Virus record (IMG/VR): IMGVR_UViG_3300030106_004662
Location: 37,674 to 59,605 of that record
Origin: a virus
Strand: one strand, 5' to 3'
DNA length: 21,932 bases
Each line of letters starts with the position of its first letter. The first letter of the stretch is position 1. The position numbers and the translations under genes were made by a program. This document shows positions 3-16,767 of the stretch, in pieces. The notes under the pieces were generated by a model. It saw only the letters and a list, made by a program, of their open reading frames with translations, was not told the origin of the DNA and did not search any database.

Positions 3-419
3 ATAGAACAAAAAGAAAAATTTGACCGAGTCGATGACTCGGTATGTGCAGTGCGTTCCGCACTACAAGAAGGTATTCTGCCTGGGGGTGGATTAGCTCT
101 ATGGAGATTAACTCCTGAAATAAAAGAAGAGTATGAGTGTATAGACGAAGAGGTTGCTGATAAAATATTAAACACAGCTCTACAAGCTCCATTAACTCAA
201 ATATTAAAAAACGCTGGCCGAACTCCAGAAGAAATAATGATTAAGGATCTAATAGATGATACCAATGGTTTTGATGTAAAGAACGGAAAGTATGGAGACA
301 TGTTTAAAATGGGAGTTATTGATCCACTCAAAGTAACAAAGAATGCATTGATAAACGCAACCAGTGTGGCGACTACAATATTATCAACTAATGCAATTGT
401 TACACATGGAAGGGCTTAG
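3..419 (+). CDS. groEL: Chaperonin GroEL, C-terminal part (5' end outside window)
   Basis: The reading frame is open to the left edge, so only the last 138 residues of a 60 kDa chaperonin are visible. They cover the end of the apical/intermediate region and the C-terminal equatorial domain, which binds ATP. Motifs seen: RVDDS near residues 9-13, whose second Asp matches the ATPase-active Asp398 of E. coli GroEL; the nucleotide-contacting GGG at residues 28-30; and GVIDPLKV, whose Asp matches Asp495. The protein stops at THGRA without the Gly-Gly-Met tail common in bacterial GroEL. An ATP-driven folding cage acting with the GroES encoded 105 bp downstream is the expected role. A phage rather than host origin is inferred from the surrounding virion genes. 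Identity is near certain; completeness of the upstream part cannot be judged. Confidence 0.96.
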   Translation: MEQKEKFDRVDDSVCAVRSALQEGILPGGGLALWRLTPEIKEEYECIDEEVADKILNTALQAPLTQILKNAGRTPEEIMIKDLIDDTNGFDVKNGKYGDMFKMGVIDPLKVTKNALINATSVATTILSTNAIVTHGRA

Positions 420-781: not shown

Positions 782-1220
782 ACTTATTTAATTCTATAAT
801 CATATTTCTGTAAACCTTATCCATGTAGGTAGCGTCATGTCTAAAAAGCGGATTCGAGCTCGGAGACTCTGCGATCTCCTCGCCATTTAACTTCTTATAT
901 AAAGTGTTTACCAATCTTTTACCTTTATAAGATAATTCATATAATGTAGCTTCGTTGCCTTGTCGCTTACGCCAAACATGAATATATCCTTGTTTTAATA
1001 ATCTATAAAACCTGGGTTCGTCCCAAGACATACACTGTTCAAACTCTTTGAATTTAGTTTTGTTAAAGATATGTTCGCTATAAAGGAAAAATAGCATATC
1101 TATATCTGGAGTTCCGATTTTGTATTTGGCTTTAGCCCAATACCTTATCACCCTCCAATACTTCATATAATCGTTTGAGGGTTGAACTCGATCGTAGTTC
1201 TTTCTTATTATATTTGACAT
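747..1220 (-). CDS. Winged-helix (MarR-like) DNA-binding protein, putative regulator
   Basis: A 157-residue protein on the minus strand, the only leftward gene in the window. Residues about 35-115 read as a winged helix: a helical IDMLFFLYSEHIF segment, a recognition-like helix around DEPRFYRLLKQGYI, then a two-strand wing with WRKRQGNEATLYELS, followed by a long helix beginning KGKRLVNTLYKK. The pattern is MarR/PadR-like, but the family is not certain. The C-terminal 25 residues look helical and may dimerise. The start codon sits between two opposed promoter cores, so the protein is well placed to control itself and the rightward gene block. Its 3' end overlaps groES tail to tail. Regulation is inferred; the gene itself looks solid. 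Confidence 0.8.
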   Translation of the reverse strand: MSNIIRKNYDRVQPSNDYMKYWRVIRYWAKAKYKIGTPDIDMLFFLYSEHIFNKTKFKEFEQCMSWDEPRFYRLLKQGYIHVWRKRQGNEATLYELSYKGKRLVNTLYKKLNGEEIAESPSSNPLFRHDATYMDKVYRNMIIELNKFIKQQRHLSQE

Positions 1221-1241
1221 TAAATTTAATTTGTATCTTTG
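1213..1241 (+). promoter_or_regulatory. Rightward Bacteroidota-type promoter for the small basic gene island
   Basis: A -33-like TTTG at 1213-1216 and a -7 box TATCTTTG at 1234-1241, separated by 17 bases, match the Bacteroidota primary sigma factor consensus. The predicted transcript start near 1245 leaves a leader of about 29 bases before the ATG at 1274. It is the best-formed promoter in the window, being the only one with both boxes at good spacing. The -33 box runs into the start codon of the minus-strand regulator. Confidence 0.75.
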
Positions 1242-1251
1242 TAATCACAAA
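1238..1251. promoter_or_regulatory. Candidate operator: 14-bp dyad between opposed promoter cores
   Basis: TTTGTaatcACAAA is a perfect 5-bp inverted repeat with a 4-base centre. Its two arms contain the TTTG ends of the two facing -7 boxes. A dimeric winged-helix protein bound here would cover both promoters. The dyad is short, and part of it (TTTGTAATCA) recurs at the promoter near 5301, so an operator role is only an inference. Confidence 0.35.
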
Positions 1252-1255
1252 ACTA
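1248..1255 (-). promoter_or_regulatory. Candidate leftward promoter core for the regulator gene
   Basis: On the minus strand this reads TAGTTTTG, fitting TAnnTTTG, and would start transcription near 1244, about 24 bases before the regulator start codon at 1220. No convincing -33 box was found. The core faces the rightward promoter, so the two predicted start sites nearly coincide. In AT-rich DNA a single core of this kind can arise by chance. Confidence 0.4.
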
Positions 1256-1273
1256 CTAAAAAATATATTTACT

Positions 1274-1627
1274 ATGCCTACAGTTACAGTTAATGGAAAG
1301 AAAAAAGTTTTTCCTTACAATGCAGTTGGAAAAGCTCAAGCTGACTTTTATGCAAGAATGCATGGGGGTAAAAAGAAGAATAATCCTGGGCCTAAAAGTG
1401 AAGTAAAGTCTTCTAAAAATAAAAGCAAATTAGAGAAAGAGATAGAGAAAAACAAAAAAGATAAAAAAGATACAAGGCTTGCTGATCAAATATATACAAA
1501 ATCAAAAGTAGACGCGAGTCTTAAAAAAGAAGGATACCACACAGCTAAAGGTATTAGAGGAACGAAAAAATCACAGTATCATGAGACAGGCATGGGTAAC
1601 ATGTCGGGAACAGCAATGTTCAGTTAA
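1274..1627 (+). CDS. Small basic protein, paralogue of the 2827 protein
   Basis: A 117-residue Lys-rich protein. The ATG at 1274 is chosen because it follows the promoter by a normal leader, and because the protein then begins MPTVTVNGK, matching the start of the 56-residue protein at 2827. The shared part (residues 1-46) has the pattern MPTV, FPYNA(V/I)GKAQA and GGKKK(N/D)NPG. The rest (about 47-117) is a charged Lys/Glu linker ending in a Gly/Ser-rich tail (residues 90-117), which the short paralogue lacks. No catalytic motif is visible and I do not know the function. It is the first gene of the rightward unit of small basic proteins. Confidence 0.8.
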   Translation: MPTVTVNGKKKVFPYNAVGKAQADFYARMHGGKKKNNPGPKSEVKSSKNKSKLEKEIEKNKKDKKDTRLADQIYTKSKVDASLKKEGYHTAKGIRGTKKSQYHETGMGNMSGTAMFS

Positions 1628-1644
1628 TATTAAAAAATTATAAA

Positions 1645-2034
1645 ATGAAAACAGTAGCCCTTAGAAAAAAAGCAAAGCTTAGTAAAGAGAGAAAAAGACT
1701 TAACAAGTTAGTTAAGAAAAGAAAAAAAACTACAGAAAAAATATCTAAACTTCAGAAAAAGAAAAAAACTAAAAAAACTAAATTAGGTAAAAAGCTTGTA
1801 GAAATTCGTGAAAACTTAGCAAAGAAAAAGAACACGAGAATACAGAAAAAAATTAATAAAAACCCTGAAGCAATAAAAGATAGAGAAAGGGGAAAAATGA
1901 TAGAAAGTTCAGGAAATCTTGTTAATAAGATTACAACAGGTGGTCCAAAAAAACCTATGCGTCCAGGACCTACAAAAGAAAGGGCGAAGAAAAGAACGGG
2001 TAGAGCTATTTCTACCCTGGGTAAAAAACTTTAA
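1645..2034 (+). CDS. Very Lys-rich protein (129 aa)
   Basis: By my count about 38 Lys and 12 Arg in 129 residues, with few acidic residues, so the protein should be strongly positively charged. Residues about 10-75 look like a basic helix or coiled coil; the C-terminal 40 residues contain a Pro/Gly-rich patch (GGPKKPMRPGP) and end LGKKL. Such proteins bind nucleic acid non-specifically. A role in condensing the phage genome or as an internal head protein is possible but only inferred. It follows the 1274 gene by 17 bases and precedes the 2038 gene by 3 bases, so it is surely in the same operon. No homologous family recognised. Confidence 0.72.
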   Translation: MKTVALRKKAKLSKERKRLNKLVKKRKKTTEKISKLQKKKKTKKTKLGKKLVEIRENLAKKKNTRIQKKINKNPEAIKDRERGKMIESSGNLVNKITTGGPKKPMRPGPTKERAKKRTGRAISTLGKKL

Positions 2035-2037
2035 GAC

Positions 2038-2727
2038 ATGTCAGATAGAAAAGTAAAAAAAAGTAGAAAGACTACACCTAAAAAGTCTACTAAAAAGGTA
2101 GTAATAAAGGACACGCAAAAAAGAGCTGTTAAAGAATCTTTTACTTCAAAACGAGGCCACTCTATTCGTTATGGAAAAGACACAGACTCTGTTGCCGCAA
2201 GAAGGGCTTCTATTAAAAAGCAAAAAGCTGACAGAATACAAAAAGAAAAAGCAGAAAAGGCTAAACTAAAAAAAGAGAAGAGAGATAAGAAAGCTAAAGA
2301 AAGAAAAGAAAAAAGAGATAAAAGGGCTGTTGAAAGAGAAAAAAGAACTCAAGAAAGAATTAAAAAGACAACAGAGAGAAAGCTTAAGAGAGAAGCTAAG
2401 AAAGTAGAGAAGACACAAAAAAAGGCCACTAAAACTAAAGGAACTGATAAAGGTTCTAAGAATCAATCTAAAGCTAAAGAACAGTTTGATAAAAGTGTAG
2501 CAAAAAAAGTCGATAGAGAGGCAAAAGCGGCAGAAAAATCTAAAGCAGCAAAGAAAAGGTTAGAGGAAAGAAAGAAAAAAAATGAAGCTACTTTAAAAAG
2601 AAAGTTAGAGTCTAATGAAAAAAGAAAAGAAAAAAGTATTAGCAGAAGTAAAAGACAAAGAACTCGTAGGTACAGCAGAGCCCGTAAAGACTCTTTTGCA
2701 AAAAGATTCAGCGGAAGATTCAATTAG
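2038..2727 (+). CDS. Highly basic Lys/Arg/Glu-rich coiled-coil protein (229 aa)
   Basis: A 229-residue protein dominated by Lys, Arg, Glu and Ala. Residues 1-60 are basic with Ser/Thr; residues about 60-200 form an almost unbroken charged helix with alternating K/E runs (for example REKRTQERIKKTTERK); the last 30 residues are Arg/Ser-rich (SRSKRQRTRRYSRARKDS). Histone-like or scaffold-like behaviour would fit the composition, but no domain is recognised. The A-rich sequence also opens frames on both strands that are compositional shadows. A different frame beginning at 2615 overlaps the final 113 bases and may be a separate gene. The coding call is supported by tight spacing to the previous stop (2034) and by its length. 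Confidence 0.7.
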   Translation: MSDRKVKKSRKTTPKKSTKKVVIKDTQKRAVKESFTSKRGHSIRYGKDTDSVAARRASIKKQKADRIQKEKAEKAKLKKEKRDKKAKERKEKRDKRAVEREKRTQERIKKTTERKLKREAKKVEKTQKKATKTKGTDKGSKNQSKAKEQFDKSVAKKVDREAKAAEKSKAAKKRLEERKKKNEATLKRKLESNEKRKEKSISRSKRQRTRRYSRARKDSFAKRFSGRFN

Positions 2728-2803
2728 ACATAGTAAGTATTATTATGATTATACCAGAAACTTGTCTTACGAGCAAGCTAAAGAGTTTGAAAAAAATAAT
2801 TAG
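2615..2803 (+). CDS. Possible small acidic-tailed protein overlapping the 2038 gene
   Basis: A 62-residue frame whose first 37 codons lie inside the 3' end of the previous gene. The part beyond that gene encodes a Tyr-rich tail (SKYYYDYTRNLSYEQAKEFE) that looks like ordinary protein rather than noise, and it fills the gap up to the promoter at 2804. No ATG occurs after 2615, so this is the only obvious start. The overlap is unusually long for this otherwise neatly tiled genome. Alternatives are a +1 frameshift product extending the 2038 protein, a non-ATG start nearer the tail, or a non-coding frame. Confidence 0.5.
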   Translation: MKKEKKKVLAEVKDKELVGTAEPVKTLLQKDSAEDSIRHSKYYYDYTRNLSYEQAKEFEKNN

Positions 2804-2811
2804 TATATTTG
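2804..2811 (+). promoter_or_regulatory. Bacteroidota-type promoter core
   Basis: TATATTTG fits TAnnTTTG and would start transcription about 12 bases before the ATG at 2827. The core begins immediately after the stop of the 2615 frame. No TTG at the usual -33 distance was found. Confidence 0.5.
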
Positions 2812-2826
2812 TAAAAAATTAAAATT

Positions 2827-2997
2827 ATGCCAACAGTAAGTTACAAGTGCGGAGATACGGGTAAGATGAAAAAGAAAACTTTCCCATACAATGCAATAGG
2901 AAAAGCACAAGCTGCTGAGTTTGCAAAAACTATGGGCGGCAAGAAAAAAGATAATCCGGGATACGGAATGGAAAAAAAAATGAAGTCTAACTATTAA
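2827..2997 (+). CDS. Small basic protein, short paralogue of the 1274 protein
   Basis: A 56-residue protein. It starts MPTVSYKCGDTGKMKKK, continues FPYNAIGKAQAAEFAK, and has MGGKKKDNPG, so it is nearly all the shared module of the 1274 protein, with an eight-residue Cys-containing insertion near the start (CGDTGK, residues 8-13). It ends shortly after that module. It lies directly behind its own promoter core. The pair looks like an old tandem duplication in which one copy gained a long charged tail. No enzymatic motif is visible; function unknown. Confidence 0.78.
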   Translation: MPTVSYKCGDTGKMKKKTFPYNAIGKAQAAEFAKTMGGKKKDNPGYGMEKKMKSNY

Positions 2998-3007
2998 AAT
3001 AAAAAAA

Positions 3008-3214
3008 ATGAAACAAGGTTATAACGACAGACTTGATGAGTCTATAGGTGGAAAACACAAAGGTAAACACTCTCAGTCTATGAAAGATCGTAGAGATGAG
3101 TCAAAAGGAATGGCTAAAAAGATGACAGGTCATGCTTACTCTGGAGACCACAATATGGATAAGCACTATCCTAAAAGTGTAAAAGGAAAGATCGGTTCTT
3201 TAATTAGAAAGTAA
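3008..3214 (+). CDS. Small basic protein with DRLDES / DRRDESKGM repeat
   Basis: A 68-residue protein rich in Lys, His, Gly and Ser. It contains two related motifs, NDRLDESIGG (residues 6-15) and KDRRDESKGM (26-35), suggesting an internal duplication of about 20 residues. Several His residues (HKGKHS, GHAYSGDHNMDKHY) could bind metal but are not in a recognised arrangement. The stop overlaps the next start as TAATG, so translation is probably coupled. Similar DRLDES-type small proteins are, from memory, frequent in marine phage sequences, without known function. Confidence 0.75.
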   Translation: MKQGYNDRLDESIGGKHKGKHSQSMKDRRDESKGMAKKMTGHAYSGDHNMDKHYPKSVKGKIGSLIRK

Positions 3215-3420
3215 TGGCTAAAAAAGGAAGAACTAAAAAAGACTTTCCAGAAATTAAAAAAGAAGACCAAGGTAAATTTACATCTTGGGCAAAAAAGAAC
3301 GGATTCGAAGACGCGTGTAGCGCTGCCGATGCAGTTATGAAGAGGAAAGATAAGTACTCTACAAAAGTTGTAAAGATGGCTAACTACGCAAAAAACTTCG
3401 GGTGCAGAATGAAAAAATAA
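3214..3420 (+). CDS. Small basic protein, KGRTKKDFP type
   Basis: A 68-residue protein that begins MAKKGRTKKDFPEIKKED and continues with an apparently helical domain: FTSWAKKNGFEDACSAAD, then VMKRKDKYSTKVVKMANYAK and a basic GCRMKK end. The amphipathic pattern (W, F, V, Y, F spaced along helices) indicates a folded domain rather than a simple basic tail. Two Cys residues are present. It shares the MAK(K/R)GRTKK start with the protein at 5903, but the domains after it differ. The start overlaps the previous stop by one base. No function can be assigned. Confidence 0.78.
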   Translation: MAKKGRTKKDFPEIKKEDQGKFTSWAKKNGFEDACSAADAVMKRKDKYSTKVVKMANYAKNFGCRMKK

Positions 3421-3426
3421 ATTATT

Positions 3427-3567
3427 ATGGGAAAATTATTAGTATGGTTAGGTAATGAAATATCAAGCCTAACATGTAAATTAAAATGCAAATGGAACTG
3501 GCTATTAGACAAGATTACTTTTAATGTTACTTCTTGTCCACAAAACATTTGCACTTGTAAAAAATAA
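3427..3567 (+). CDS. Cys-rich 46-residue protein
   Basis: A short gene filling the gap between 3420 and 3574, with ATG and TAA in good positions. The product has five Cys in 46 residues: a CxxxC pair (17 and 21) and a second group, C37, C42 and C44, as CPQNICTC. Trp and Leu residues give a partly hydrophobic N-terminal half (LLVWLGNEIS). The arrangement could bind zinc or form disulfides; it resembles no motif I can name. Its compositional contrast with the Lys-rich neighbours argues against a random frame. It is too short for strong coding statistics. Confidence 0.6.
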   Translation: MGKLLVWLGNEISSLTCKLKCKWNWLLDKITFNVTSCPQNICTCKK

Positions 3568-3573
3568 AATCAA

Positions 3574-3789
3574 ATGAGAAGAACAAAGATTAGTGATTTG
3601 CCTGCTCGTTTAAAATCCAGAAGCGCTGGAATATCAAGATCCAGAGGATTAGGAGATACGGTAGAAAAATTTACTAAAGCTACAGGAATAAAAAAAGTAG
3701 TTGATTATGTTGCTGAAAAAACAAATAAAGACTGCGGATGCAATAAAAGAAGAGACACTCTTAATAGAATGTTTCCTTATGACAAATAA
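3574..3789 (+). CDS. Small basic protein with CGCNKRRDTLN motif
   Basis: A 71-residue protein. The first 25 residues are Arg/Ser-rich; then comes GLGDTVEKFTKATGIKKVVD (26-45), a probable helix, and a C-terminal DCGCNKRRDTLNRMFPYDK with two Cys separated by one residue. From memory, the combination of a GLGD...TGI...KV segment and a C-terminal CGC motif recurs in Bacteroidota phage proteins of unknown function. It sits 11 bases before the first surface-protein gene, so it may be a minor virion or assembly factor. No biochemical role is assigned. Confidence 0.78.
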   Translation: MRRTKISDLPARLKSRSAGISRSRGLGDTVEKFTKATGIKKVVDYVAEKTNKDCGCNKRRDTLNRMFPYDK

Positions 3790-10483: not shown

Positions 10484-10702
10484 ATGGACATTAGAAAAAT
10501 ATCAGTTGGCGCAGATTATAAATCTGGCGCTATGCATTACATTGTTGGCCAACATGTATTAGGAGGAAGTCACGCAATCCATCTTATACAAGAAGAGCCA
10601 GAATCTTATAAAATCTGGATACAAAAAGAAGAAGAAGTATATCTTTGGAAAGAGCTTTTAAAAACACTTCCTGTATCAGTTGAATTTAATATAAATTTTT
10701 AA
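10484..10702 (+). CDS. Small conserved-looking protein, MDIRKISVGADYKS type
   Basis: A 72-residue protein. It begins MDIRKISVGADYKSGAMHYI and ends with PVSVEFNINF; the middle (IHLIQEEPESYKIWIQKEEE followed by VYLWKELLKT) has alternating beta strands and a short helix. The strong aromatic/acidic patterning indicates a small folded domain. From memory, this family is frequent in marine phage genomes near structural genes; function unknown. Its stop overlaps the start of the two-lobed GroES-like gene (TAATG), so the two are probably made together, and it may act in the same assembly step. An alternative ATG at 10479 is in another frame and was not used. Confidence 0.8.
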   Translation: MDIRKISVGADYKSGAMHYIVGQHVLGGSHAIHLIQEEPESYKIWIQKEEEVYLWKELLKTLPVSVEFNINF

Positions 10703-11262
10703 TGAAATCACCTTTTAGTTTTATTGTCAAACCTTACAATAGTAAGCGTTATGACAATATTAAGAATATAGAAAACATAGATTTAATTACAAGCACATCA
10801 AAAGAAGATGCGTCTTCTTCAAATAGGTTTGCTATTGTCGTAGAAACACCCATTAATTACAAGGGGCCTATAAAAAAAGGAGACACTCTTCTTGTTCACC
10901 ATAATGTTTTTAAATATTATAATGATATGAAGGGAAGAGAAAAAAGCGGTAAGAGTTATTTTAAAGATGATTTGTTTTTTGTAGATAACGATCAGTTTTT
11001 TTTATACAAACAAAAAGACAGGTGGAGTGCTCACGGAAAGTACTGTTTTGTAAAACCTATTGATGCAGAAGATTTTTTTATAGACAAAGGAAAAGAAGAG
11101 CCTTTAGTGGGTATAATTAAATATATAAATCAAGAATTAATAAATAAAGGCGTAAAAGAAGGTGATAAAATTTCTTTTACCCCAAACAGTGAATATGAGT
11201 TTAGAGTAGATAATGAAAAACTTTACAGAATGTTTACTAATAATATAACTATGATTTTATGA
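10702..11262 (+). CDS. Two-lobed GroES-like protein, putative second co-chaperonin
   Basis: A 186-residue protein not identical to any GroES I know, but with the GroES pattern twice. The N-terminal lobe (about 5-103) starts FSFIVKP, has a variable Ser-rich loop (28-41) where GroES has its mobile loop, then GPIKKGDTLLVHHNVF and DLFFVDNDQFFLYK. The C-terminal lobe (about 114-186) starts YCFVKPI, then PLVGIIKY, VKEGDKISF, EYEFRVDNEKLYRM and a closing NITMIL, closely matching the KxGDxVxF...G-x-E...(V/I)DxxxYxxx...DIxxxx end of Cpn10. The predicted fold is therefore a tandem GroES domain. Plant chloroplast Cpn20 is the known precedent for two fused Cpn10 domains. It could cap the GroEL encoded at the left edge, or be a structural relative with another job. 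Confidence 0.62.
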   Translation: MKSPFSFIVKPYNSKRYDNIKNIENIDLITSTSKEDASSSNRFAIVVETPINYKGPIKKGDTLLVHHNVFKYYNDMKGREKSGKSYFKDDLFFVDNDQFFLYKQKDRWSAHGKYCFVKPIDAEDFFIDKGKEEPLVGIIKYINQELINKGVKEGDKISFTPNSEYEFRVDNEKLYRMFTNNITMIL

Positions 11263-11831
11263 TTTATATTGTAGATGATTTTATAGACTCTAATATTTTA
11301 AGCTCTGTAAACGAGTATTTAAATAATGGAGATTTTAAAAAACAAGTTAGTGGAAATAAAAACTTTTACATTAAAGAGTCTCCGCAAGAGTTTAATAAAT
11401 ATATGTTAAATAAACTTATATCATACGAAGTAAGAGATTTAGAAAATATATTAAGTTTTTTTAGAGTTTCTACTGATGAGTTAGACACTTCTTGGCGTAT
11501 ACACTCTGACCTAAATATAAACGGCCAAAAACCTGACAGAGCTTTAGTTTTATACTTGTCTCCAAGAGAAAAAGAAGAACTTCATGGCACCGCTTTATGG
11601 GAGCATGATATATATGGTGGTCAAATACCTACAGATATAACTAATGAGGAGTATGATAAAATGATAAATGTGGATGCAAATAATTTAGAAAAATGGAGAC
11701 TTAGTACTGTGGTGGGTTATGAGTTTAACAGGATGGTGTCTTACCCTTCTTCTTATTTTCACAGTAAATATCCTAACAAGTCATGGAAGGAGGGTAGAAA
11801 GGTTTTTGTAATGTTTTATAAATATAAATAA
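11259..11831 (+). CDS. 2OG-Fe(II)-dependent oxygenase (prolyl-hydroxylase-like)
   Basis: A 190-residue protein with the double-stranded beta helix signature of 2-oxoglutarate/Fe(II) oxygenases. WRIHSDLNI supplies the HxD iron ligands (His82 and Asp84), YFHSKYP supplies the distal His168, and WKEGRKVFVMFYKYK supplies Arg180 at the usual position for 2OG binding. Other characteristic parts are RALVLYLSP, GTALWEHD and TVVGYEFNRMVSYPSS. These enzymes hydroxylate proteins, nucleic acids or small molecules; the substrate here is unknown. The start overlaps the GroES-like stop (ATGA), and the gene precedes the terminase genes, an odd place for an enzyme. Modification of a virion or host protein is possible but only inferred. 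Confidence 0.85.
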   Translation: MIYIVDDFIDSNILSSVNEYLNNGDFKKQVSGNKNFYIKESPQEFNKYMLNKLISYEVRDLENILSFFRVSTDELDTSWRIHSDLNINGQKPDRALVLYLSPREKEELHGTALWEHDIYGGQIPTDITNEEYDKMINVDANNLEKWRLSTVVGYEFNRMVSYPSSYFHSKYPNKSWKEGRKVFVMFYKYK

Positions 11832-11832
11832 A

Positions 11833-12111
11833 ATGGACAGTAAAGAAATTAAATTACAAATTATAGAGGCTGGTAAAAAAGCTGTAAAACAGTTAATTAA
11901 GGTTGCTAAAGAAGATATTATAAAATACGACAAAGATGATGAGTTAGCAGCAGATAGATTAAAAAACGCAGCAGCCACAAAGAAGTTGGCAATATTTGAT
12001 GCTTTTGAAATATTAAATAGAATAGAAAGTGAAAAAGCATTGTTAGAAGGAACAGTTAAAGAAAAGAAAAACACAACACCAAAAGGATTTGCAGAATCAA
12101 GATCAAAATAA
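11833..12111 (+). CDS. Putative small terminase subunit
   Basis: A 92-residue helical protein directly upstream of, and overlapping by 23 bases, the large terminase gene, the standard place for the small subunit. Residues 1-75 are two or three charged helices (KKAVKQLIKVAKEDI, AADRLKNAAATKKLAIFDAF, EILNRIESEKALLEG); the C-terminus reads KGFAESRSK. No clear helix-turn-helix is visible, and it is shorter than many small terminases (140-180 residues), so the assignment rests on position and helical content. In its family role it would recognise phage DNA and regulate the large subunit's ATPase and nuclease. It starts 1 base after the oxygenase stop. Confidence 0.62.
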   Translation: MDSKEIKLQIIEAGKKAVKQLIKVAKEDIIKYDKDDELAADRLKNAAATKKLAIFDAFEILNRIESEKALLEGTVKEKKNTTPKGFAESRSK

Positions 12112-14335
12112 TTTATATAGAATAATAAAAGATGTTATTCCTAAAAATGTATTGAGCAATAAAAATAGAGCTCATACATGGGATTATGGGTATAATGAAA
12201 AATATGATATTGTAATTATTTCAAAAGACGGAACATTAGGAGAAATATATGAAATCAACGGTTTAAAAGTTGGACTACCCTTGTATTCAAAAGACATTAT
12301 AAAAAGATCTGATAAAAAAGAAGACCAATATTGGGAGGCTTCTGAACTACATAAAGATTTAAAAAGAATAAAATCTATTTTTCAATGGCATGAGACGCCA
12401 GATGAATTTAAAGGTAAGTGGGTAGACTACATTGAAAAAGAGTTTGATAGAAGAGAATATGGTACGTTTTTTATGAACAACGGAGTCCCTACTTATATAA
12501 CAGGAACTCACTATATGTATTTACAATGGACAAAGATTGACGTAGGTCACCCAGACTTTAGAGAGGCAAACAGAATATTTTATATTTTTTGGGAGGCATG
12601 TAAGGCAGACAAAAGAAGCTTTGGAATGTGTTATTTAAAAATAAGACGTTCAGGGTTTTCTTTTATGAGCTCATGTGAAGGGGTAAATAAAGCTACTATT
12701 ACTAAAGACGCAAGAATAGGTATTTTGTCTAAAACAGGTTCTGACGCTAAAAAAATGTTTACAGATAAAGTTGTGCCTATATCTAATAATTATCCTTTCT
12801 TTTTTAAACCTATTCAAGATGGTATGGATAAACCTAAAACAGAATTAGCATACCGAGTTCCAGCCTCTAAGATTACAAAGAAAAACATGCACACTTTAGC
12901 TGATGAAGAGTTAGAGGGTTTAGACACCACAATAGATTGGAAAAACACGGGTGACAATAGTTATGATGGAGAAAAGCTACAATTATTATTACACGATGAA
13001 AGTGGTAAGTGGGAAAAACCTGATAATATTTTAAATAACTGGAGGGTAACTAAAACTTGTTTACGTTTAGGTAGCAAAGTTATAGGAAAGTGTATGATGG
13101 GTTCTACTTCTAATGCTTTAGATAAAGGAGGAAATAATTTTAAGTCTTTATACTACGATTCTTTTCCTAACAAAAGAAACGCTAATGGTCAAACAAAAAG
13201 CGGTCTTTATTGTTTGTTTGTTCCTATGGAGTGGAATTTTGAAGGGTATATAGACAGATATGGCATGCCGGTATTTAGAACCCCAGTACAACCTGTTATT
13301 GGGGTAGATGGAGAAGATATTAAAATAGGAGCTTTAGATTATTGGGAAAATGAAGTAAATTCTTTAACTCATGACGCAGATGCTTTGAATGAATTTTATA
13401 GACAATTTCCAAGAAGCGAGTCTCATGCCTTTAGAGATGAAAGCAAACAATCTATATTTAATTTAACTAAAATATACCAACAAATAGACTATAATGATTC
13501 TTTAATTATGAGTCATCATTTAACAAGAGGATCGTTTCATTGGGAAAACGGAATAAAGGATAGTAAAGTAATATGGTCGCCAAATAAACAAGGGCGATTT
13601 TTAGTAAGCTGGACTCCTCCTAAAAATTTACAAAACCGCATAGAAACAAGAAGAGGGTTAAAATATCCGGGCAACGAACATTTAGGATCTTTTGGTTGTG
13701 ACTCTTATGATATTTCTGGGGTTGTTGTAGGTAAGGGGTCTAATGGTTCTTTGCATGGTTTGACTAAATTTAATATGGATCAAGCTCCAAGTAATGAGTT
13801 TTTTTTAGAATATATTGCAAGACCTCAGACTGCTGAAATATTTTTTGAAGAAGTTTTAATGGCTTGTATTTTTTATGGAATGCCTATCTTGGCAGAAAAC
13901 AACAAGCCCAGACTTTTATATCACTTTAAAAACAGAGGATACAGAGGTTACAGCATGAATAGACCTGACAAAGTTTATACTAAACTTTCTAAAACAGAAA
14001 GAGAATTAGGAGGTATACCTAATACTTCGGAAGATGTGAAACAGTCTCACGCAGCAGCAATAGAATCTTATATTGAAAAGTATGTAGGTATAGATTTAAA
14101 TGGAGATTTTAGAACAACTGGAGACATGGGGTCAATGTTTTTTCAAAAAACATTAGAAGACTGGGCAAAGTTTGATATTACTAACAGAACAAAATATGAC
14201 GCTGCTATAAGCTCTGGACTGGCTATTATGGCCAACCAAAAGCATCTTTATACACCATCTAAACAAAAATCAAAAATAAGTATTAACTTTGCAAAATACA
14301 ATAACAGTAGTACTATAAGTAAAATAATTACATGA
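12089..14335 (+). CDS. terL: Large terminase subunit (packaging ATPase/nuclease)
   Basis: A 748-residue protein with the two-domain TerL layout. ATPase: the Walker A position is taken by KIRRSGFS (184-191), a deviant P-loop lacking GKS/T; Walker B is LLLHDESGKW (299-308), with Asp303-Glu304; and a probable coupling motif is MMGST (336-340). Nuclease of RuvC type: GCDSYD (536-541) with Asp538, AENN (602-605) with Glu603, and YDAAISSGLA (703-712) with Asp704 as the third acid. The N-terminal 120 residues (YGTFFMNNG, PTYITGTHYMYLQW) are an adapter seen in phages with long TerLs. It translocates DNA through the portal encoded next and cuts it. Length (748) is above the common 450-600, chiefly in the N-terminus. 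Its TGA overlaps the portal ATG. Confidence 0.92.
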   Translation: MQNQDQNNLYRIIKDVIPKNVLSNKNRAHTWDYGYNEKYDIVIISKDGTLGEIYEINGLKVGLPLYSKDIIKRSDKKEDQYWEASELHKDLKRIKSIFQWHETPDEFKGKWVDYIEKEFDRREYGTFFMNNGVPTYITGTHYMYLQWTKIDVGHPDFREANRIFYIFWEACKADKRSFGMCYLKIRRSGFSFMSSCEGVNKATITKDARIGILSKTGSDAKKMFTDKVVPISNNYPFFFKPIQDGMDKPKTELAYRVPASKITKKNMHTLADEELEGLDTTIDWKNTGDNSYDGEKLQLLLHDESGKWEKPDNILNNWRVTKTCLRLGSKVIGKCMMGSTSNALDKGGNNFKSLYYDSFPNKRNANGQTKSGLYCLFVPMEWNFEGYIDRYGMPVFRTPVQPVIGVDGEDIKIGALDYWENEVNSLTHDADALNEFYRQFPRSESHAFRDESKQSIFNLTKIYQQIDYNDSLIMSHHLTRGSFHWENGIKDSKVIWSPNKQGRFLVSWTPPKNLQNRIETRRGLKYPGNEHLGSFGCDSYDISGVVVGKGSNGSLHGLTKFNMDQAPSNEFFLEYIARPQTAEIFFEEVLMACIFYGMPILAENNKPRLLYHFKNRGYRGYSMNRPDKVYTKLSKTERELGGIPNTSEDVKQSHAAAIESYIEKYVGIDLNGDFRTTGDMGSMFFQKTLEDWAKFDITNRTKYDAAISSGLAIMANQKHLYTPSKQKSKISINFAKYNNSSTISKIIT

Positions 14336-16767
14336 AAGAAGTCCAGATAGATATAAAGTCTGCTGCATTTCCAGATCAGTTTGTACCTGATTCCAAAAAG
14401 GCTACAAAAGAGTTTGGACTACAAGTAGGTCAAGCAATACAATATGAGTGGTTTAGAAGAGATGGTTTATCGTGTAGGTTCTATGATCAATTTAGAGAGT
14501 TTCATAAACTACGTTTATATGCCAGAGGAGAACAGTCTGTTGGTAAATATAAAAATGAATTAGCTATTGATGGCGATTTATCTTACCTTAATTTAGACTG
14601 GACCCCGGTTCCTATTATTCCAAAATTTGTAGACATTGTGGTAAACGGAATGTCAGATAGATTGTTTGATGTTAAGTGTTATGCTCAAGACGCTTTGTCA
14701 GCCGAAAAAAGAAATCAGTTTCAACGTATGGTTGAAAAAAACATGTTGTCTAAAAACTTATACCAGCAAATAGAACAAGATTTTGGGGTAAATGTTTTTG
14801 AAGTAAACCCCGATCAACTTCCAGAAAACGATACTGAAATGGAACTGTATATGCAGTTAAATTATAAGCCGGCTGTTGAAATAGCAAACGAGGTTGCAAT
14901 AAACACTATGCTTGAGGAAAATCATTACAACGACACGCGAAAAAGAGTTGATTACGATATATGTACTTTAGGTATTGGAATGTGTAAACATACTTTTAGG
15001 GAAGGGGACGGTATAAAAGTAGAGTATGTAGATCCTGCTAATGTTGTATATAGCTATACAGAAGACCCGTATTTTAAAGATTGTTTTTATTGGGGAGAGT
15101 TAAAGACGATTCCTATAACTGAAGTTTTAAAAATCAATCCAGAGTTAACTGAAAAAGATTTAGAAGAAATATCAAAATATAGCCAATCGTGGTACAACTA
15201 TTATAATACAGCTCAAATGTATGAAAATAGTATGTTTTACAAAGACACTTGCACCTTGTTGTTTTTTAATTATAAAACTACAAACAGTTTTGTTTATAAG
15301 AAAAAAGCAATGACTGATGGAAGTTTTAAAACTGTAGAAAAAGACGATCAGTTTAACCCGCCTCAAGAAATGCAAGAAGAGGGTAAGTTTGAAAAAGTAG
15401 AAAAAAGAATTGACGTTTGGTATGAAGGGGTGATGGTAATGGGAACAAACATCATAATAAAATGGGATATGATGAAAAATATGGTGCGTCCTAATTCCGC
15501 AAGTCAATATGCTATGCCTAATTATGTAGCTTGTGCGCCAAGAATGTATAAAGGCGTTGTTGAATCATTAGTTAGAAGAATGATACCTTTTGCCGATCTT
15601 ATACAGATAACTCATTTAAAATTACAACAAGTTGTGGCAAGGGTTGTTCCAGATGGTGTCTTTATAGATGCAGACGGTTTGAATGAGGTTGACCTGGGAA
15701 CAGGGAATGCTTATAATCCTGAAGATGCTTTAAGATTGTATTTTCAAACAGGTAGTGTTGTGGGTAGAAGTTACACTCAAGACGGTGAATTTAATAATGC
15801 TAAAGTTCCTATTACTCAATTAACAGCTAATAGCGGAGGCTCAAAGATGCAAATGCTTATTGGTAATTATAATCATTACTTAGATATGATAAGATCTGTA
15901 ACAGGACTAAACGAAGCAAGAGACGGATCTACTCCAGATCCTAATTCTTTGGTGGGGGTTCAAAAATTAGCCGCGTTAAATTCAAATACCGCAACCAGAC
16001 ATATATTACAGTCAAGTTTATTTATTACAAAAACTATTGCGGAAGCTCTTTCTTTAAGAGTTGCAGATGTTTTAGAATATGCTGATTTTAAAGACGAGTT
16101 TGCTATGCAGGTTGGTAAATACAACTTAGGTGTATTAGAAGAAATAAAAAATCTATATATATATGACTTTGGTATATTTATAGAAATGAGTCCAGACGAA
16201 GAGCAAAAACAACAGTTAGAGGCTAATATACAAATGGCTTTATCTAAACAAGATATTAATTTAGAGGACGCCATTGATATTCGAGAGGTTAAAAACTTAA
16301 AAATGGCTAATCAAGTTTTAAAAATGAAAAGAAAGCAGAAGATGGAGGCTCAGCAACAACAAGAAATGCAAAAGCAACAGATGCAACAACAAGGGCAAAT
16401 GCAGTCTCAACAAGCTGCGGCTCAAGCTGCTCAACAAAAAATGCAAATGGAAATGCAAACAAAAATGCAAATACAACAAGCAGAAGCAGCTATGGAAATA
16501 GAGAAACAAAAAAATGAAGCGGCCTTAAAACAACAACTAATGGCTGTAGAATTTAGCTATCAAATGCAGTTAAAAGGAATGCAAGAAAAACAAATGGACG
16601 ATAGAGAAAAAAGCAGAGAAGAAGGAAAGTCAAGAAGGATAGCCGAGCAAAACACTCAACAGTCTAAACTAATAGAGCAAAGAAAAAGAAACCTTCCTGC
16701 TATAAAATTTGAATCCAACGAAGATAGTTTAGATGGATTTGATTTAGCGGAATTTGAACCAAGATAA
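14332..16767 (+). CDS. Portal protein with long Gln/Met-rich C-terminal coil
   Basis: An 811-residue protein directly after TerL. The core (about 1-660) has portal features: a conserved-looking start, a wing region with long helices (NEVAINTMLEENHYN), the IPFADLIQITHLKLQQVVA segment, and TANSGGSKMQMLIGNYNHYL followed by VTGLNEARDG, as in podovirus- and crAss-type portals. Residues about 671-757 are a low-complexity Gln/Met/Lys/Glu helix (MEAQQQQEMQKQQMQQQ and onward) that probably forms a coiled coil or barrel lining the inside of the capsid, followed by a basic region (EEGKSRRIAEQN) and an acidic tail (SLDGFDLAEFEP). As a dodecameric ring it should form the DNA gate and nucleate head assembly. 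Identity rests on position, size and motifs rather than a catalytic site. Confidence 0.87.
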   Translation: MKEVQIDIKSAAFPDQFVPDSKKATKEFGLQVGQAIQYEWFRRDGLSCRFYDQFREFHKLRLYARGEQSVGKYKNELAIDGDLSYLNLDWTPVPIIPKFVDIVVNGMSDRLFDVKCYAQDALSAEKRNQFQRMVEKNMLSKNLYQQIEQDFGVNVFEVNPDQLPENDTEMELYMQLNYKPAVEIANEVAINTMLEENHYNDTRKRVDYDICTLGIGMCKHTFREGDGIKVEYVDPANVVYSYTEDPYFKDCFYWGELKTIPITEVLKINPELTEKDLEEISKYSQSWYNYYNTAQMYENSMFYKDTCTLLFFNYKTTNSFVYKKKAMTDGSFKTVEKDDQFNPPQEMQEEGKFEKVEKRIDVWYEGVMVMGTNIIIKWDMMKNMVRPNSASQYAMPNYVACAPRMYKGVVESLVRRMIPFADLIQITHLKLQQVVARVVPDGVFIDADGLNEVDLGTGNAYNPEDALRLYFQTGSVVGRSYTQDGEFNNAKVPITQLTANSGGSKMQMLIGNYNHYLDMIRSVTGLNEARDGSTPDPNSLVGVQKLAALNSNTATRHILQSSLFITKTIAEALSLRVADVLEYADFKDEFAMQVGKYNLGVLEEIKNLYIYDFGIFIEMSPDEEQKQQLEANIQMALSKQDINLEDAIDIREVKNLKMANQVLKMKRKQKMEAQQQQEMQKQQMQQQGQMQSQQAAAQAAQQKMQMEMQTKMQIQQAEAAMEIEKQKNEAALKQQLMAVEFSYQMQLKGMQEKQMDDREKSREEGKSRRIAEQNTQQSKLIEQRKRNLPAIKFESNEDSLDGFDLAEFEPR

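Follow-up and report, generated by a model that had tools for sequence, protein, structure and literature searches.

A predicted tandem GroES-like protein encoded ahead of the terminase gene in a group of bacterial viruses

Results

Genes at the locus

The DNA analysed here, which we call the window (21,932 nucleotides), runs from position 37674 to position 59605 of a virus record of 59,605 bases. Near its start lie the C-terminal end of a phage GroEL gene and a gene for a single-domain phage GroES, both of them, as a first-pass annotation of the window had it, about 10 kb upstream of an open reading frame (ORF) for a 186-residue protein with two GroES-like halves (Table 1). The bounds listed for this ORF are exact, from an ATG start to a TGA stop; its first base is the last base of the preceding ORF (1 nt overlap), and its stop shares 4 nt with the ATG of the next. 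Further 3' follow a DUF6445-type gene, a 92-aa ORF and the genes for terminase and portal, with the terminase ORF starting 826 nt downstream, which agrees with the earlier placing of the gene beside the packaging genes. The DUF6445-type product contains HSD ... FHSKYP ... GR, which resembles what we take to be a 2OG-Fe(II) dioxygenase motif; a PDB sequence search with it gave 0 matches. In Maribacter phage Panino, a gene labelled minor coat protein sits one gene from GroEL.

Table 1. Position and assignment of features in the window
Feature	Position	Strand	Basis
Phage GroEL, C-terminal end (525 aa in the whole record, short run of N)	3..419	+	Pfam/PHROG
Single-domain phage GroES, 85 aa	524..781	+	Pfam Cpn10 E 2.8e-11
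Tandem GroES-like protein, putative co-chaperonin, 186 aa	10702..11262	+	ORF, phrog_13932 E 3.9e-23, AlphaFold2 model, VIA Cpn20 match
Predicted N-terminal GroES-like barrel, ~residues 1-104	10702..11013	+	Separate model, VIA rows 1-14; weak sequence signal
N-half loop, residues 20-40, lowest model confidence; hydrophobic pair L28-I29	10759..10821	+	pLDDT, 84 relatives
HHN motif, residues 66-68, after GD motif	10897..10905	+	Conservation in 84 sequences
Predicted C-terminal GroES-like barrel, ~residues 109-186, shorter loop	11026..11259	+	VIA Z up to 9.4 to GroES; hhalign 95%
DUF6445 / phrog_1644 'minor coat protein' family gene	11259..11831	+	Pfam and PHROG matches; 4-nt overlap with tandem gene
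Terminase large subunit	12089..14335	+	phrog_6681 E 2.4e-176
Portal protein	14332..16767	+	phrog_6547 E 5.4e-150

The tandem ORF is a real gene under purifying selection, because its dN lies far below its dS: 0.005 against 0.089 for one relative (L001), 0.087 against 0.95 for another (L002), and sum dN / sum dS = 0.10 for 40 of 52 relative pairs (85-95% DNA identity). Selection, synteny and structure together rule out that the protein arose by chance or artefact.

Family and distribution

The protein aligns over residues 1-182 of 186 with positions 1-195 of 200 of phrog_13932, 'co-chaperonin GroES'. PHROG 13932 (Callevirus, Elemovirus, Baltivirus and Panino) is the same family at the same place before the terminase, with no essential difference. 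The earlier claim of an undescribed system is thus hard to uphold, since besides the PHROG label many isolate records read co-chaperonin GroES or chaperonin cpn10, and the available text of PMC8776804 counts 'chaperonin cpn10' among the core proteins of Pervagoviridae. The literature searched, which covered few subscription papers, yielded no description of a tandem layout for phage Cpn10. What we take as new is the Cpn20-like tandem layout, the fixed place before the terminase and the tie to a single GroES.

A search of the phage collection found tandem relatives at E <= 0.01 in 85 records, namely 68 of Flavobacterium phage elemo, 15 of Cellulophaga phages, 1 of a Maribacter phage (Panino) and MW202828; among the matches listed, the elemo records are near copies of one another. 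The window protein is 61% identical to that of MW202828 and <40% to those of the other isolates. Of 560 candidate stretches from viral contigs, 557 encode a relative, and a second, profile-led scan found one in at least 575 of 600 stretches.

The terminase starts at most 3 kb downstream of the tandem gene (0 to 1340 nt, alignment-projected) in 182 of 182 loci, which were fetched by tandem-gene similarity, include many close relatives and hence are not independent. Starting from 193 loci, 188 matched, 185 were left once two cut-off genes and the window's own piece had been dropped, and 182 of these had at least 600 nt downstream. A DUF6445-type gene, sought by tblastn with the window protein, stands between the tandem gene and the terminase in 51 of the 182.

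Predicted fold of the whole protein and of its halves

For the whole protein, with 84 relatives aligned, AlphaFold2 predicts two GroES-like barrels (pLDDT 83.2, pTM 0.74). The best solved structure found by Foldseek is 7ekq_R, a Cpn20 co-chaperonin subunit (E 2.2e-4), which also comes first over the whole length in VIA (Z 10.1, 158 residues, rmsd 4.5, model range 1-186), at 11-12% identity; the likeness to chloroplast Cpn20 noted in the first-pass annotation is thereby borne out. In VIA rows 2-16, single Cpn10, GroES or gp31 chains cover roughly residues 103-186 (Z 9.4 to 7.0). In a viral library the top match is a 99% identical protein, followed by 'Chaperonin cpn10' of phi18:3.

Modelled alone, the N-half (residues 1-108) reaches pLDDT 84.5 and pTM 0.74. 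Its VIA rows 1-14 are all Cpn10, GroES, gp31 or Cpn20 chains (Z 7.5 to 6.0, where values below 8 can reflect merely a common arrangement), with the GroES-like domains of alcohol dehydrogenases ranking after them; VIA re-ranks Foldseek's own matches only. In Foldseek itself the best match is GroES with a probability of 1.00 but an E of 0.016, so that the rank agrees and the signal is weak. Altogether, the models confirm, at the level of prediction, the two-lobed tandem protein proposed earlier: a GroES beta barrel is predicted for both halves, and each half ranks Cpn10-type chains first.

Sequence evidence for each half

Cpn10-type motifs occur in both halves, as first described: FSFIVKP and KYCFVKP, KKGDTLLV and KEGDKISF, and the late D-x-x-x-(F/Y) strand. 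Each half was compared by hhalign with a GroES profile (20 phage single GroES proteins plus E. coli), with 60 column-shuffled controls each. For the C-half the probability is 95% (score 44.8, top shuffle 15.9); for the N-half it is only 13%, with a score of 22.2 against 17.5 for the top shuffle and 21 aligned columns. Compared with its own C-half, the N-half scores 18.8 against 15.9 (probability only 6%, 14 columns), and its profile matches are short and confined to the GD motif region. The sequence signal of the N-half is thus above that of the shuffles, yet small and much weaker than that of the C-half, which is the clearer Cpn10, as had been claimed; the profile-profile search proposed in the first-pass annotation leaves the C-half clear and the N-half only weakly matched. 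Duplication of the phage's present single GroES as the origin of the tandem gene finds no support, the halves being barely alike by sequence.

Searches with established profiles point the same way. Pfam Cpn10 (PF00166) gives 17.9 bits on the window protein, under its cut-off of 21.1, and covers residues 131-182 only; in five isolates tested, the cut-off is passed by phi38:1 (28.2) and phi13:2 (31.9), both in the C-half, with no Cpn10 match in the tandem proteins of elemo, Panino and MW202828. Among the 84 relatives, 46 match Pfam Cpn10 at E <= 0.1; a Pfam scan of the 84 N-halves found Cpn10 in none, and phrog_3188 matches just 4 of them. Pfam, NCBIfam and PDB sequence searches detect the C-half only, and the profile of the 84 relatives matches 7ekq_R with an E of only 0.67, in the C-half. 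The assignment of the N-half as GroES-like rests on structure prediction. On the strength of the separate N-half model, itself a prediction, we reject the reading that only the C-half is GroES, despite sequence searches that see the C-half alone.

Loops and conserved residues

The weakest stretch of the tandem model is the loop of the N-half (pLDDT 53 for residues 21-30 and 54 for residues 31-40). Aligned by eye on VKP and VKR, it is in register with the GroES mobile loop, L28-I29 corresponding to I25-V26. All 84 relatives have V, I, L, M or F at residue 28, and 81 of the 84 have one of these at residue 29. The C-half loop is shorter: P119-G137 spans 18-21 residues in 82 of the 84, and some neighbouring hydrophobic pair occurs in 77, with no fixed hydrophobic triplet. 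In the N-half of 84 sequences M1, P50, D61 and N68 are invariant, and G60, H66 and H67 are among the residues conserved to at least 90%; Baltivirus has DVN in place of HHN. GD-x4-HHN belongs to the best conserved parts of the family, and we know of no GroES counterpart or chaperonin role for it.

Co-occurrence with phage GroEL and single GroES

We examined 36 viral contigs, selected by length, and four named phages, 40 records in all, each of which carries the tandem family by construction. A phage GroEL is found in 26 of them. Matches to phrog_3188 occur in 34; in three (G002, G011 and G035) they lie only within the tandem gene, which leaves 31 with a single GroES, whose span holds one stop codon in G004, G005 and G026. 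The company of phage GroEL and single GroES claimed in the first-pass annotation is thus common, and the record of the window has all three genes. A single GroES is present in all 26 GroEL-bearing records and in five Baltivirus-type records without GroEL (four full-length genomes and one 32.5-kb contig). The nine records with neither gene hold 1.1 to 9.0 kb of upstream sequence and, as a matter of judgement, were set aside as cut off.

The single GroES lies beside or one gene from GroEL, and the tandem gene in a separate block before the terminase. When both genes share a strand, GroEL precedes the tandem gene by 8.6 to 18.4 kb, leaving aside G004 and G013, whose GroEL is placed towards the opposite end of the contig; in elemo-like records it is on the opposite strand at 4.6 to 12.5 kb (12.5 kb in G024). 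In the elemo phages, unlike in the window's group, the tandem gene is encoded on one strand and GroEL and GroES on the other, at about 5 kb (L085, 14234-16047 and 21200-21742). Baltivirus phi13:2 has a single and a tandem GroES (L088, 7718-7966 and 18339-18941) and no GroEL of its own; both its GroES proteins would hence use host GroEL or none.

The Baltivirus-type phages rule out that the tandem gene always accompanies a phage GroEL. A family found widely in phages lacking GroEL and bound to another partner had been named beforehand as a sign against the chaperonin reading; the five Baltivirus-type records bear this out in part, for the absence of GroEL. The tie of the tandem gene to the single GroES is thus no looser than that to phage GroEL, in what are few independent lineages (about six).

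Terminase relatives are found in 87 phage records, which by organism counts, among the matches listed, are the 85 above plus two of Tenacibaculum phage Gundel_1. The family search found no tandem gene, single GroES or GroEL in Gundel_1, and its ORFs matched local chaperonin profiles with nothing better than E 0.027; the same profiles clearly found the tandem and single proteins of phi13:2 and the tandem protein, single GroES and GroEL of Panino. A very diverged Cpn10 in Gundel_1 is possible, because the same single-GroES profile misses the gene of the crAss-like phage phi14:2. A search for GroES in plasmids gave 1 record only.

Compared with E. coli GroEL, the window GroEL keeps the ATP-site residues D52, D87 and D398 as well as T89-T91, Y199, F204 and L237, and has I at 259. 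Its groove carries E234 (L in E. coli), A263 and A264 (V in both cases) and L203 (Y); because of these differences, ordinary docking cannot be assumed. Mass spectrometry found the GroEL of phi38:1, in methylated form, both in infected cells and in samples of free virions, and the available text of PMC13288928 does not name the tandem protein alongside it. According to the accessible part of PMC5332604, GroEL homologs are present in 36 environmental genomes of the group 2 that includes phi38:1, and phi38:1 structural homologs in all 78 group 2 genomes. For Panino, GroEL and GroES homologs are given in the part of PMC11590407 at hand. In the accessible text of PMC9980608, the word chaperonin occurs solely within a reference.

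Cpn10-like genes in crAss-like phages

In cr108_1, cr111_1 and PhiCrAssBcn16 the annotated terminase is preceded, two or three genes ahead, by a single-domain Cpn10-like gene; phi14:2 and DAC15 have one at a similar place, with the terminase unlabelled. In phi14:2 we take the 806-aa hypothetical protein gp105 for the terminase. In DAC15, the long gene at the terminase place (L199, 8326-11658) is labelled 'DarB-like antirestriction' and is perhaps a mislabelled terminase. GroEL is present in three of the five records, and the label 'putative 10kDa chaperonin' in two (PhiCrAssBcn16 and cr111_1); phrog_3188 missed the Cpn10-like gene in two (phi14:2 and DAC15). A profile of the five sequences matches GroES at 95.7%, the tandem C-half at 45% and the N-half at 6%, and a search with phi14:2 gp107 matches only its own two records. 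The crAss-like (Steigviridae) 'putative 10kDa chaperonin' is thus Cpn10-like and near the terminase as the tandem gene is, but it has one domain and 126-148 aa. Taken together, these loci show that several groups of Bacteroidota phages have a Cpn10-like gene near the terminase, whether or not a phage GroEL is present.

Discussion

To our knowledge, tandem Cpn10 lids are known from plastids only. Cpn20/Cpn21 of chloroplasts and apicoplasts join two GroES-like domains head to tail in a single chain, the layout predicted for the phage protein; the phage protein differs in being encoded by a bacterial virus, in its low identity and in a strongly diverged N-half with the HHN motif. Its C-half loop is short, whereas Plasmodium cpn20 keeps a mobile loop in both domains, as stated in the available part of PMC3542282. 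Plants and green algae encode a single Cpn10 besides Cpn20 (PMC5780408, accessible text); chloroplast Cpn20 and Cpn10 form functional hetero-oligomers of seven GroES-like domains, and Cpn20 alone also works, as far as PMC5780408 and PMC3542282 were available.

A second precedent comes from phage T4, which is not known to have a GroEL of its own and whose single-domain gp31 works on host GroEL and is needed for folding of the major capsid protein. As we propose for the tandem protein, gp31 is a phage-coded replacement for GroES, a role it assumes according to the available part of PMC6318259, and both tandem halves match 1g31 / 2cgt.

We consider it probable that the tandem protein is a phage co-chaperonin for head assembly that acts on phage or host GroEL. 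In favour are the whole-length match to Cpn20, the Cpn10-type chains ranked first for each half, the N-half loop with its retained hydrophobic pair, the frequent company of GroEL and single GroES, the neighbouring terminase, the lack of all three chaperonin genes in the searches of Gundel_1, the ATP-site residues kept by the window GroEL and the detection of phi38:1 GroEL in infected cells. Against it speak the retention of the protein in Baltivirus-type phages that lack GroEL, the weak Cpn10 signal of the N-half, the short C-half loop, the conserved GD...HHN stretch and the altered groove residues of the window GroEL. What we infer further concerns docking on GroEL, the make-up of the ring and the client proteins. 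A two-barrel lid subunit would cap the GroEL ring during head assembly, and phage head or packaging proteins would fold within the capped chamber. The flexible loop of the N-half may dock on GroEL by its hydrophobic pair, while the C-half would keep the GroES body with a shorter loop. The partner would be phage GroEL where present and otherwise host GroEL, as with T4 gp31.

Such a protein could instead be a repurposed GroES fold that has lost its contact with GroEL and now helps terminase or portal to assemble or dock. The fixed place before the terminase in all loci, the retention of the gene without phage GroEL in Baltivirus-type phages, the conservation of GD...HHN and the crAss-like Cpn10-like genes, near the terminase and without GroEL in 2 of 5 records, would all suit this reading. 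We nevertheless regard it as unlikely: the flexible N-loop has retained its hydrophobic pair, and a single GroES accompanies the tandem gene in every GroEL-bearing and every Baltivirus-type record, while Gundel_1 shows none of the three genes. The position of the gene at the head of the structural block would also suit a role in the virion itself, as a minor component such as a connector or head protein, instead of one in assembly. This is highly improbable given the GroES-like predicted fold; moreover, in phi38:1 and phi13:2 the neighbours are often labelled 'structural' and the tandem gene is not, which by itself is no proof.

Within the co-chaperonin explanation, the architecture of the lid can be conceived in more than one way. 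The two genes might give two separate lids, a tandem ring (e.g. of seven chains, with the N-barrels on GroEL) and an ordinary single-GroES heptamer for other clients. Their presence in the same genomes but in different blocks would be in line with this arrangement, to which we assign a low probability; as one architecture of a co-chaperonin, its likelihood overlaps with that of the co-chaperonin explanation as a whole. As a tentative alternative, the lid could be mixed, with seven barrels contributed by tandem and single GroES, e.g. three tandem chains and one single. Because the tandem protein brings an even number of barrels and the GroEL ring has seven sites, the single GroES would be the odd partner. 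A mixed lid would explain why the single GroES follows the tandem gene even without GroEL (31 versus 26 of 40 records) and why neither the single nor the tandem gene is seen in Gundel_1, and it fits the co-occurrence at least as well as two kinds of lid do. If true, it would be a patterned lid presenting unequal faces on phage or host GroEL.

Should a tandem Cpn10 lid be carried by a large group of phages, this layout would exist outside plastids too. These phages would then offer a small system, with one copy each of GroEL, single GroES and tandem GroES and with the terminase as a fixed neighbour, for studying how a lid with an even number of barrels fits onto a ring of seven sites and which head proteins depend on it; the full set is present in the isolates phi38:1, Calle, elemo and Panino.

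As to the clients, the first-pass annotation had thought of a large capsid or fibre protein. A large capsid is doubtful, as the related isolate Calle is given 60.3 nm in what is apparently the capsid column of the available part of PMC8776804. Elsewhere in the window, positions 1175-3789 on the plus strand hold a run of small Lys-rich ORFs (150, 129, 229, 62, 56, 68, 68 and 71 aa), some with GGKKK, which could encode DNA-binding or head-internal proteins.
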